A stretch of DNA of 64,000 bases from Leifsonia williamsii (GTDB taxonomy: Bacteria > Actinomycetota > Actinomycetes > Actinomycetales > Microbacteriaceae). Under the pieces are notes generated by a model. The model saw nothing but the letters and a program-made list of their open reading frames with translations. It had not been told where the DNA came from and ran no database searches. Location of the stretch: contig NZ_JAROCF010000001.1 of the NCBI RefSeq assembly GCF_030433685.1, positions 620,001 to 684,000 on the forward strand. Direction: 5' to 3'. Position 1 is the stretch's first letter, and every line of letters begins with the position of its first letter. The position numbers and the translations under genes were made by a program. Below, piece by piece: positions 21,471-24,486 of the stretch.

Positions 21471-21821
21471 TCACACCCCCGCGAGGAACGAGGCGACCGC
21501 GTCGAGCGAGCCGGGGACGATGCGGTAGTACGCCCATGTGCCCCGCTTGGACCGGGTCAGGTAGCCGCCCCCGACGAGGATCTTGAGGTGGTGCGACACC
21601 GTCGGCTGCGACAGCCCGAGCGGCTCCGTGAGATCGCACACACAGGCCTCGCCGTCGTCGTGTGCGGCAACCATCGACAGCAGCCGCAGGCGCGCGGGAT
21701 CGGCGAGCGCCTTCATCGCCTTCGCGACCGAGACCGCGTTCTCCTCGCTGATCACCTCGCGCGTGATGGGCGCGCAGCACGCCTGCAGATCGCGCAGCGG
21801 CAGCAGCTCGGTGGTCGTCAT
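21471..21821 (-). CDS. arsR: ArsR-family arsenic/metal-responsive repressor
   Basis: 116 aa. Winged helix: AKAMKALADPARLRLLSMVA, DLTEPLGLSQPTVSHHLKIL (recognition helix), wing GGYLTRSKRGTWAYYRI. Thiol ligands are the CC pair of QACCAPI near the N-terminus and the EACVCDL motif at the start of the alpha-3 region, the classical As(III)/Sb(III) site. ATG 21821 is followed upstream by a perfect palindromic operator, giving autorepression and control of the divergent peptide-arsC genes. Confidence 0.92.
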   Translation of the reverse strand: MTTTELLPLRDLQACCAPITREVISEENAVSVAKAMKALADPARLRLLSMVAAHDDGEACVCDLTEPLGLSQPTVSHHLKILVGGGYLTRSKRGTWAYYRIVPGSLDAVASFLAGV

Positions 21822-21837
21822 GGGTCGATTCTCGCCG

Positions 21838-21861
21838 ATACATTGACAAACGTCAATGTAT
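21838..21861. promoter_or_regulatory. ArsR-type operator 1 (perfect inverted repeat)
   Basis: ATACATTGAC-AAAC-GTCAATGTAT: perfect 10-bp arms, 4-bp spacer, 17 nt upstream of the arsR ATG. The ATTGAC/GTCAAT core is like known ArsR/SmtB-family sites. Confidence 0.85.
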
Positions 21862-21875
21862 TCGTTCACCCTTGG

Positions 21876-21897
21876 TTCATCGACAAGCGTCGATGAA
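21876..21897. promoter_or_regulatory. ArsR-type operator 2 (inverted repeat)
   Basis: TTCATCGAC-AAGC-GTCGATGAA: perfect 9-bp arms with a 4-bp spacer, a diverged copy of operator 1. It lies directly in front of the ribosome site of the Cys-rich peptide gene, so it may control the plus-strand transcript. Centres of the two sites are 37 bp apart. Confidence 0.75.
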
Positions 21898-21912
21898 GAA
21901 GGGAGAATCATC

Positions 21913-21981
21913 ATGGGATGCTGCGACACCGACGAGTGCCAGGTTCTGCCGGACGGCTCCTGCTCGCCCGACTGCTGCTGA
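21913..21981 (+). CDS. Six-cysteine micropeptide between ArsR operators and arsC
   Basis: 22 aa encoded by ATG 21913 to TGA 21981, preceded by a strong AAGGGAG site at about 12 nt. Six of 22 residues are Cys: a CC pair at 3-4, single Cys at 9 and 17, and a terminal CC pair at 21-22, with four Asp and no basic residue. It lies immediately after the second ArsR-type operator and 83 nt before arsC, so it should be induced with arsC. The composition suggests a metallothionein-like As(III) or metal binder. It is too short for family assignment. It is a prediction from ribosome site, context and composition. Confidence 0.6.
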   Translation: MGCCDTDECQVLPDGSCSPDCC

Positions 21982-22064
21982 CACCGCCCGGGCCGCCGCC
22001 CGCGCCACCCGGCCCGGCGGCGGCCCCACCCCGACACCCCCGCACCTCGACACGAAGAGAGACA

Positions 22065-22478
22065 ATGACCACCCCCTCCCGCCCCGCCGTCCTGTTCGTC
22101 TGCGTGCACAACGCCGGCCGATCGCAGATGGCCGCCGGCTACCTGCGCGAGCTCGCCGGCGACCGCGTCGACGTGCTCTCCGCCGGGTCCGAGCCCGCGG
22201 ACCGCCTCAACCCCGTCGCGGTGGAGGCGATGGCAGAGGAGGGCATCGACATCACGGCGAACACGCCCGCGATCCTGACGACCGAGGCCGTGCGGGAGTC
22301 CGATGTCGTCATCACGATGGGCTGCGGCGACACCTGCCCGATCTTCCCGGGCAAGCGCTACGAGGACTGGGAGCTGACCGACCCGGCCGGACTCCCCCTC
22401 GACCAGGTCCGCCCGATCCGCGACGACATCCGCCGCCGGGTGGAGGCGCTGGTCGCGGAGCTGACGCCGGCCGACTGA
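22065..22478 (+). CDS. arsC: Arsenate reductase, low-molecular-weight phosphatase type
   Basis: 137 aa. The phosphatase loop CVHNAGRSQMA places the nucleophile C13, and VITMGCGDTCPIFPGKRYEDW supplies C87 and C91 as possible resolving cysteines. LTDPAGLPLDQVRPIRDDI is the usual Asp-containing end motif. In actinobacteria such enzymes reduce arsenate with mycothiol/mycoredoxin or thioredoxin; which partner is used here cannot be seen. ATG at 22065 follows GAAGAGAG. No arsB, acr3 or arsA lies in the window. Confidence 0.92.
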   Translation: MTTPSRPAVLFVCVHNAGRSQMAAGYLRELAGDRVDVLSAGSEPADRLNPVAVEAMAEEGIDITANTPAILTTEAVRESDVVITMGCGDTCPIFPGKRYEDWELTDPAGLPLDQVRPIRDDIRRRVEALVAELTPAD

Positions 22479-23017: not shown

Positions 23018-24058
23018 TCAGCGCTGCGCCGCCTGCACCTCCACCGTCAGGTCGTCCAGGTTGCGGAGGTGACCGGAGGCGTGCCGGCGGGCCGCCGCTG
23101 AGATGTCCTGCGCCTCGGCCAATCCGGTCGCCGCGACGACGACGGTCGCCGTCCCCTGCAGGCGGTGTCCGATCCAGCGCAACTGGACCCGTGGCACCGC
23201 GAGCACGCCCTCCGTGCCTGCGAGCGCGTGCTCCAGCCGGTGCACCAGCTCCGGCTCGATGCCGTCCATCAGGCGACGGCCGATGCTGCGGACGGTGCCC
23301 CAGAGCAGGATCAGGATGGCGGCCGAGATCAGCAGGCCGACGACCGGGTCCGCCCACGGCAGCCCTGCCATCACGCCGAGCGCGCCGAGAACCACGGCCA
23401 GCGACGTGAAGCCGTCGATCCGGGCGTGCACACCGTCGGCGACGAGCGCGGCGGACCCGATCCGCCGGCCCACCCGGATCCGGTAGATCGCGACCGCCTC
23501 GTTGCCCGCGAAGCCGATCACACCCGCCGCGACCACCCACCACAGGTTGTGCAGCGGCTGCGGGTGCACGAAGCGGTCGATCGACTGCCACGCCGCCACG
23601 ACGGCCGACAGCGCGACGACCGCGATGATGAACAGCCCGGCCAGATCCTCCGCGCGACCGAACCCGAACGTGTACCGGCTGGTCGCGGCGCGGCGCCCCA
23701 GCACGAAGGCGACCCAGAGCGGGATGGCGGTCAGCGCGTCCGAGAAGTTGTGGACCGTGTCCGCCAGCAGCGCGACCGAACCGCTGATCAGCACCACACC
23801 GAGCTGAAGCAGGGTCGTGCCGAGCAGGATGACCAGGCTGATGACGAGCGCACGCACGCCGACATTGCTCGCCTCCAGGGCATCGTCGATGGAGTCGGCC
23901 GCGTCGTGCGAGTGCGGGACGAAGAGCTCGTGGAGGAATCCGCGGATGCCGGAGGGATGGTCGTGGCCGTGCTCGTGGGAGTGCTCGTGGCCGTGCTCAT
24001 GCGCGTGCGCGTGCCCGTGCTCGTGCGAGTGACCATGCCCGTCAACGCCCGCGCTCAC
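23018..24058 (-). CDS. Cation diffusion facilitator (Zn/Co/Ni efflux)
   Basis: 346 aa. The first 35 residues contain about 14 His in HGH/HEH runs, a metal-buffering tail. Six helices follow; the metal site is HNFSD (TM2, ALLADTVHNFSDALTAIP) and HARID in TM5 (ALVADGVHARIDGFTSL), where the canonical second pair is HxxxD. A cytoplasmic CTD ends the protein (IEPELVHRLEHALAGTEGVL). The H/D set suits Zn or a similar divalent ion. The GTG start overlaps the arsR2 stop (GTGA), so repressor and pump are coupled. Confidence 0.92.
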   Translation of the reverse strand: MSAGVDGHGHSHEHGHAHAHEHGHEHSHEHGHDHPSGIRGFLHELFVPHSHDAADSIDDALEASNVGVRALVISLVILLGTTLLQLGVVLISGSVALLADTVHNFSDALTAIPLWVAFVLGRRAATSRYTFGFGRAEDLAGLFIIAVVALSAVVAAWQSIDRFVHPQPLHNLWWVVAAGVIGFAGNEAVAIYRIRVGRRIGSAALVADGVHARIDGFTSLAVVLGALGVMAGLPWADPVVGLLISAAILILLWGTVRSIGRRLMDGIEPELVHRLEHALAGTEGVLAVPRVQLRWIGHRLQGTATVVVAATGLAEAQDISAAARRHASGHLRNLDDLTVEVQAAQR

Positions 24059-24450
24059 CGTGCCTCCCCGCCGGCGACCGCCTCGTCCTGAAGCGCCGCC
24101 TCCGCGTGGTGGTGCCGCGGGGTTCCACCCAGCGAGTGCTCCGCCTGCAGGATGGCGTCGGACACCAGCCGGCTCGCATGCTCGTTCTCGAGCCGGTAGA
24201 ACACCCGCTGCCCCTGCTGGCGCGTCGCGACGATCCGCGCCAGCCGGAGCTTCGCGAGGTGCTGCGAGACCGCGGCCGACGGCTTGTCGAGGATGTCGGC
24301 GAGGTGATTGACCGAGAGCTCGCCGGCGTCGCGCAGGGCGAGGATGATCCGCACTCGCGTGGCATCGGCGAGCATGCCGAACACCTCGACGGCCTGCTCG
24401 ACGAACTGGCTGTCGGGCAGCCTCCCGCATATCGGCTTATCTGCATCCAT
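24055..24450 (-). CDS. ArsR/SmtB-family metal repressor of the efflux gene
   Basis: 131 aa from ATG 24450. Winged helix: EVFGMLADATRVRIILALRD, LADILDKPSAAVSQHLAKLR, wing ARIVATRQQGQRVFYRLEN. The C-terminal helix region has HASRLVSDAILQAEHSL and a GGTPRHHHAEA His cluster, suggesting an alpha-5 or C-terminal divalent metal site as in NmtR/CzrA rather than a thiol site. An inverted repeat overlaps the start codon. It lies only 36 nt after flgE on the same strand. Confidence 0.88.
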   Translation of the reverse strand: MDADKPICGRLPDSQFVEQAVEVFGMLADATRVRIILALRDAGELSVNHLADILDKPSAAVSQHLAKLRLARIVATRQQGQRVFYRLENEHASRLVSDAILQAEHSLGGTPRHHHAEAALQDEAVAGGEAR

Positions 24451-24459
24451 ACGCAGATA
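24438..24459. promoter_or_regulatory. Putative operator of metal-efflux operon
   Basis: TATCTGC-N8-GCAGATA inverted repeat covering the arsR2 start codon. Its arms resemble ArsR/SmtB-family operators. Binding there would block both initiation of transcription near the ATG and translation start access. Confidence 0.6.
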
Positions 24460-24486
24460 CAAACATGCCGACGCGGGAGACGCAAA

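Follow-up and report, generated by a model that had tools for sequence, protein, structure and literature searches.

What does a 22-residue peptide with six cysteines do between an ArsR-type repressor gene and an arsenate reductase gene? We addressed this question in a 64-kb window, by which we mean the whole stretch of Leifsonia williamsii DNA that was analyzed (64,000 nt). An earlier note on this DNA had described a 69-nt cysteine-dense open reading frame (ORF) with a strong ribosome site, together with twin ArsR-type operators. Both were borne out: the ATG of the ORF lies 7 nt after an AAGGGAG sequence, and two perfect 6-4-6 inverted repeats sit between arsR and the ORF. The locus reads as follows:

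21474 to 21821, minus strand: arsR, divergent, encoding a 116-aa ArsR/SmtB-type repressor with Cys15-Cys16 and Cys60-Val-Cys62
21842 to 21857: operator-like inverted repeat 1, perfect 6-4-6, ATTGAC-AAAC-GTCAAT
21879 to 21894: operator-like inverted repeat 2, perfect 6-4-6, ATCGAC-AAGC-GTCGAT
21899 to 21905, plus strand: ribosome-binding sequence AAGGGAG
21913 to 21981, plus strand: micropeptide gene encoding MGCCDTDECQVLPDGSCSPDCC, 22 residues with six Cys and four Asp
21990 to 22026, plus strand: GC-rich hairpin without a T run, 8 nt after the peptide stop, folding z -3.4
22065 to 22478, plus strand: arsC, arsenate reductase of the low-molecular-weight phosphatase fold, identified by Pfam and solved relatives

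The pattern of MGCCDTDECQVLPDGSCSPDCC is CC-x4-C-x7-C-x3-CC. We defined micropeptides as products of 8 to 45 aa with at least four Cys, at least 15% Cys, and a terminal CC; across both strands of the 64 kb, this peptide was the sole one found. ArsC of the window scored above the cut-off for PF01451 and below the NCBIfam equivalog cut-offs, with the arsenate reductases 3t38 and 3rh0 among its best solved relatives. A consensus promoter scan (21828 to 21908) placed a -35-like box within one of the operators and the sequence GAGAAT a few nucleotides before the ATG of both divergent genes, with -10 boxes overlapping the ribosome site. If GAGAAT is the -10 box, both divergent messages would be nearly leaderless; by eye, this box is not kept in all relatives. 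No consensus terminator was found after the peptide gene of the window, and an Rfam search of the locus returned only a microRNA family (E 0.8, far below the gathering score). A second ArsR/SmtB-type regulator is encoded at 24055 to 24462 on the minus strand (within 23018 to 24462, minus strand), and downstream of it an open frame resembles, by eye, a cation-diffusion facilitator with a His-rich N terminus.

The earlier note had proposed searching for the ORF beside arsR in other genomes, and this search established its conservation. Among 28 genomes of the genus, 15 carried the peptide (16 strong matches, E ≤ 3.3e-7), and all 16 places lay beside a divergent arsR with 81 to 100% identity. Named relatives carrying this peptide were Leifsonia. 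The peptide was followed by arsC at 12 of the 16 places; at L040, L041, L042, and L044, there was no arsC within 1.5 kb, and the next gene, as judged from open frames, was oppositely oriented. One genome (G221) contained two arsR-peptide-arsC units (L034 and L057), with peptides of 22 and 21 residues. In the 13 remaining genomes, ten had matches only at E ≥ 0.2 and three had none; weak profile matches at five genus loci (L047 to L050 and L058) proved on inspection not to be Cys peptides. Because 13 of 28 genomes do without the peptide and 11 of these 13 have an ArsC match, the peptide is dispensable.

Across the 11 distinct genus peptides, M1, C3, C4, C9, Q10, L12, P13, D14, G15, C17, C21, and C22 were invariant, so that all six cysteines and a Q-x-LPDG motif were kept. 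In 13 distinct nucleotide sequences, pN/pS was 0.25 (pN 0.091, pS 0.358; two loci differing in length were excluded), and variable sites numbered 6, 5, and 14 at codon positions 1, 2, and 3. These substitution patterns indicate that the peptide ORF is under purifying selection. A profile search that was blind to arsR, run on 398 genomes of the family, returned 11 hits from two genera, each adjoining an arsR hit.

The peptide of the window is one of a widespread family that lacks annotation. Among 110 family loci ranked by ArsR similarity (the first 111 ArsR hits minus G032, whose locus L006 has the peptide), 43 held a peptide of 9 to 27 residues ending in Cys-Cys on the divergent strand. The micropeptide definition was set after the first 30 ArsR loci had been inspected, of which 27 had a peptide, as against 16 of the other 80. 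Per rank block of ten, peptide loci numbered 10, 9, 8, 7, 1, 1, 1, 2, 1, 0, and 3, an unevenness showing that the peptide is mainly a trait of a single ArsR clade. The 43 loci were spread over 17 of 39 genera. Their chosen starts all scored 5 or 6 of 6 against AGGAGG, a score that itself guided start choice. In a set of 80 named loci found by ArsR similarity, which overlaps the ranked set in organisms so that the counts are not additive, 21 had a peptide: three each in Leifsonia and Microbacterium; two each in Agrococcus, Subtercola, Curtobacterium, and Amnibacterium; one each in Terrimesophilobacter, Glaciihabitans, and Leucobacter; and four more without a genus name. Other families of the order had a peptide at 2 of 38 loci, MCNDTGCCPPGCC (L257) and MDTGYADPGCCTGNSQDCCEDDCAANGQGCC (L312). 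Besides MGCCDTDECQVLPDGSCSPDCC, further short Cys peptides are MPDCCDPEEGCCELGCC and MDECCEGCC. Starting instead from arsC, a search of 199 genomes in which 30 loci were scanned yielded four with a peptide (L002, L003, L004, and L006), and two others (L019 and L030) had Cys-rich ORFs not ending in CC.

Such peptides were absent from the opposite strand in all 110 ranked loci and in 228 loci across three partly overlapping sets. Dinucleotide-shuffled promoter-downstream regions of relatives gave none in 550, versus 43 in 110 real loci. That the ORF arose by chance, a reading prompted by its small size and by the lack of annotation within the searches made, has virtually no probability: purifying selection, the shuffles, conservation in the genus, and the arsR-blind profile hits rule it out. 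The claim that no described family matches the peptide held, since Pfam and NCBIfam returned 0 families at E ≤ 1 for five peptides, although such short queries have little power. No match to the peptide of the window was found among 72,556 plasmid records; in four Microbacteriaceae plasmids, chosen from 118 records with an ArsR match, the slot divergent from arsR held a gene for an FAD- or NAD(P)-binding protein. As judged from these comparisons, the family is one of hypervariable peptides of 9 to 31 residues: sequence varies widely and position does not. The description of the peptide as a gene of this ArsR-arsC operon thus stands insofar as it is a conserved, arsR-linked gene; as a member of a hypervariable family, however, it is not confined to this operon.

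What the peptide might do is constrained by gene order. It came first in 34 of the 43 loci, about 79 to 97 nt from the arsR start, and after arsC in 9, at 516 to 547 nt. The 34 first-position genes were followed by arsC in 24 cases and by a MIP-family gene and then arsC in two (L094 and L144); in eight, there was no arsC within the 1.5 to 2.5 kb examined. Overall, arsC immediately neighbors the peptide gene, on one side or the other, in 33 of 43 loci. This adjacency is what recommends the idea that the peptide is an electron donor or acceptor for ArsC, or a thiol protector, and not a metalloid binder. However, 8 of 43 loci have no arsC in 1.5 to 2.5 kb, and CxxC occurs in only 6 of 53 distinct peptides; we regard such a role as very unlikely.

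Folding of the sequence after the peptide gene was compared with mononucleotide shuffles in 33 first-position loci (one locus was omitted because its spacer was too short), and z was ≤ -2 in 21 of them. For 28 of 31 distinct peptides, no more than ten bases separate the stop from the start of the main hairpin. By eye, terminator-like inverted repeats follow several of the peptide genes located after arsC. The order of short Cys ORF, hairpin, and arsC, present in the window as in 24 of the 43 loci, would suit attenuation, in which translation of the Cys codons senses cysteine supply and governs read-through of the hairpin into arsC. Nine copies located after arsC and eight with no arsC nearby argue against a leader peptide, as do the conserved Q-x-LPDG motif and the pN/pS ratio given above. 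Cys runs are also short: two of the 53 peptides have a run of three, and the other 51 have none longer than two. In a rough duplex test of 31 distinct peptides, pairing of the ORF with the 5' arm of the hairpin showed no overall excess (mean z -0.07), with single loci reaching z -2.5. A leader peptide, disfavored by the post-arsC and lone members, by selection on residues other than Cys, and to a lesser degree by the pairing result, is therefore highly improbable, although it might still apply to the 24 loci with arsC next.

The composition of the peptides points elsewhere. Pooling all sets gives 53 distinct peptides (with script-chosen starts, which add one or two residues to a few); Cys makes up 30% of their residues, and net charge is -1 to -6 in every case; His occurs in three, Arg or Lys in two, and an aromatic residue in three. 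Eleven of the 53 have only four Cys. Richness in cysteine, acidity, and scarcity of His, Arg, Lys, and aromatics suit thiol-only binding of a soft metalloid. Apart from thiols and carboxylates, the peptides offer hardly any groups able to bind metal. Together with the genomic slot, this composition fits a putative arsenite-binding role. Ligands consisting only of cysteine are not selective among thiophilic ions, and the As(III) site of the ArsR in the window is a predicted one, so the peptide might bind another such ion (Sb, Cd, Hg, or Cu), its link to arsenic genes being incidental. The other genes of the slot are arsenic genes (acr3, arsM, and arsC), however, and we consider binding of a different ion quite improbable.

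The regulator gives a further indication of the ligand. Aligned to the solved arsenic-responsive repressor 6j0e, the ArsR of the window places Cys15-Cys16 on Cys15-Cys16; Cys55 of the 6j0e chain faces Asp56, with Cys60 and Cys62 located 4 and 6 residues further on. According to passages of PMC11868830, the As(III) site of CgArsR (type 3) consists of Cys15, Cys16, and Cys55, and that of R773 ArsR (type 1) consists of Cys32, Cys34, and Cys37. Compared with the type 3 site, the ArsR of the window shares Cys15-Cys16 but has no Cys exactly at the place of Cys55; its CxC is similar to the Cys32/Cys34 pair given for type 1 in the same passages. Because part of each pattern is present, an As(III) site in this ArsR is likely. 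Of the 44 ArsRs from peptide loci, 42 combine an N-terminal CC with a CxC[DE]L motif, and so do 77 of the 85 ArsRs beside acr3, arsM, or ArsO-like genes; by sequence, these are cysteines of the kind found in the As(III) sites described in those passages of PMC11868830. At least one operator-like site lay in the first 90 nt of 42 of 43 peptide loci, versus 54 of 67 others, and at least two lay in 31 of 43 versus 21 of 67. The peptide gene is therefore a candidate for control by ArsR.

Which other genes occupy this position? In the ranked set, the peptide was found in 0 of 52 loci with acr3, arsM, or an ArsO-like flavoprotein gene, versus 43 of 58 without (Fisher p 4e-18, not corrected for kinship). 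The effector queries scored 421.9 bits (acr3) and 302.2 bits (arsM) against NCBIfam cut-offs of 282.8 and 263, respectively; the ArsO-like query scored 42.9 against 425, so that "ArsO-like" is a loose label. Downstream DNA per ranked locus was about 1.5 kb for 30 of 110 and 0.6 to 2.5 kb for the rest. An equal window of 1.4 kb gave the same figures (0/52 versus 43/58), and when the count was restricted to loci with 2.4 kb or more of downstream DNA, the peptide was in 0 of 47 with and 15 of 30 without these effectors. For named loci with at least 2.9 kb, the figures were 1 of 45 and 20 of 28; for other families of the order, 1 of 34 and 1 of 4. Exclusion is not strict, since L201 and L312 carry both a peptide and an acr3, arsM, or ArsO-like gene. 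Neither the peptide nor any of the three effectors was found in 15 of the 110 loci, one of which (L164) has an ArsB-like gene. Within 12 kb around ten genus peptide loci, there was no acr3 and no ArsO-like gene, and the one arsM-like match was weak (34% identity, L073).

Seven genera hold both kinds of locus. In an ArsR tree with few columns and many unresolved forks, from which two of 148 rows were left out as too short (L159, with a peptide, and L310), the peptide needs at least 7 changes, and 35 of 44 peptide rows fall within one supported group of 36. Correcting for kinship left only 3 independent supported pairs, too few for a sign test (p = 1) to speak for or against the exclusion. The slot exclusion mostly reflects one ArsR clade. 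Separately, ArsM-like proteins at three loci with the same kind of ArsR (L277, L231, and L218) have Cys-rich inserts near the N terminus (CCGTD..CCATD.. in L277), and the L128 flavoprotein has a C-terminal tail rich in Ser and Cys (SCCS).

The earlier note had also stressed that no arsenite pump gene lies in the window. For ACR3, this absence extends genome-wide: no SBF/ACR3 protein was found in the organism's own genome (3.89 Mb, 2 contigs), nor any ACR3 by PF01758 in 28 genus genomes, a meaningful negative because the model catches an ACR3 of this bacterial family. For arsB, the one family match of the genome lies outside the window: a CitMHS/ArsB-like carrier at C1:2255173, whose best score (138.5 versus 457 bits) is far below the NCBIfam ArsB cut-offs. 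The genome also encodes two MIP channels. With these channels and the carrier elsewhere, a pump-less operon does not mean that there is no arsenite exit, and the cell may still have one. Elsewhere in the family, the peptide gene and arsC flank a MIP-family (aquaporin) gene in L094 and L144, and in L006 such a gene is on the far side of arsR; these arrangements suggest modules of peptide and channel. These layouts and the exits of the organism's own genome would also suit a shuttle, in which the peptide passes As(III) to an exit route (MIP channel or CitMHS/ArsB-like carrier) or to ArsR instead of storing it. Against this reading, a MIP gene directly after the peptide was found in only two of 43 loci, not all of which were scanned for MIP, and the sequences seem too variable for a conserved docking surface. 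We therefore consider a shuttle unlikely.

We favor, with modest confidence, the hypothesis that the peptide is an arsenite-induced, thiol-only micro-metallothionein that buffers As(III) and is expressed under ArsR from a short message. Arsenite, made in part by ArsC, would release ArsR and switch on this message. Once translated, the vicinal Cys-Cys pairs and further cysteines would hold As(III) via sulfur, and the peptide would act as a stoichiometric buffer of arsenite in the cytosol. Because of the hairpin behind the peptide gene, peptide mRNA probably exceeds arsC mRNA; this suggests an excess of peptide over ArsC, which a stoichiometric sink would require. Three features favor such direct binding of As(III) by thiols over a leader peptide: the composition, the constant Cys-Cys terminus, and the peptide's near-complete substitution for other arsenic-handling genes.

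Known systems offer partial parallels. Bacterial metallothioneins (SmtA/BmtA and mycobacterial MymT) are small, Cys-rich, and controlled by metalloregulators, and have roughly 50 residues or more. The peptides resemble them in being short and high in Cys (30%), in lying beside a metalloregulator gene, and in their expected binding of thiophilic ions; they differ in their length of 9 to 31 residues, near lack of His, absence of a family match, and linkage to an arsenic-type ArsR. Phytochelatins and thiol pools such as mycothiol consist of short thiols able in principle to complex As(III), but these are made by enzymes, whereas the peptide is encoded by a gene beside arsR. The acr3, arsM, and ArsO-like genes share the divergent slot, with operator-like repeats also preceding 54 of the 67 loci without a peptide; their products are a membrane pump, a methyltransferase, and a flavoprotein, and the peptide belongs to none of these classes. 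Mycobacterial polycysteine ORFs, for which attenuation has reportedly been observed (cited in PMC13236596), are likewise short Cys-rich ORFs upstream of a gene. Unlike them, the peptides have Cys runs of at most three, often do not lie upstream of arsC, and are under selection as proteins. We therefore describe the family as metallothionein-like, with putative binding and without a described family.

We found no report of such peptides in titles and abstract starts of the open-access literature. According to passages of PMC12093948, no specific intracellular arsenic sequestration gene had been found within an ars operon as of 2025. The family is a direct and easily tested candidate for such a gene. 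We suggest tentatively, as a possibility we hold to be somewhat short of even, that ars operons encode a factor, made on ribosomes, for sequestering arsenite: thiol micropeptides of 9 to 31 residues would be the principal product under ArsR control, in place of a pump, a methyltransferase, or a flavoprotein. If sequestration is indeed their function, detoxification by this route would be an alternative to export. To our knowledge, the peptide would then rank among the smallest metal-handling proteins, and genes of this size are easily missed by gene callers. A family so free in sequence, yet constant in acidity, position, and a Cys-Cys terminus, would illustrate how few features As(III) handling demands of a peptide.
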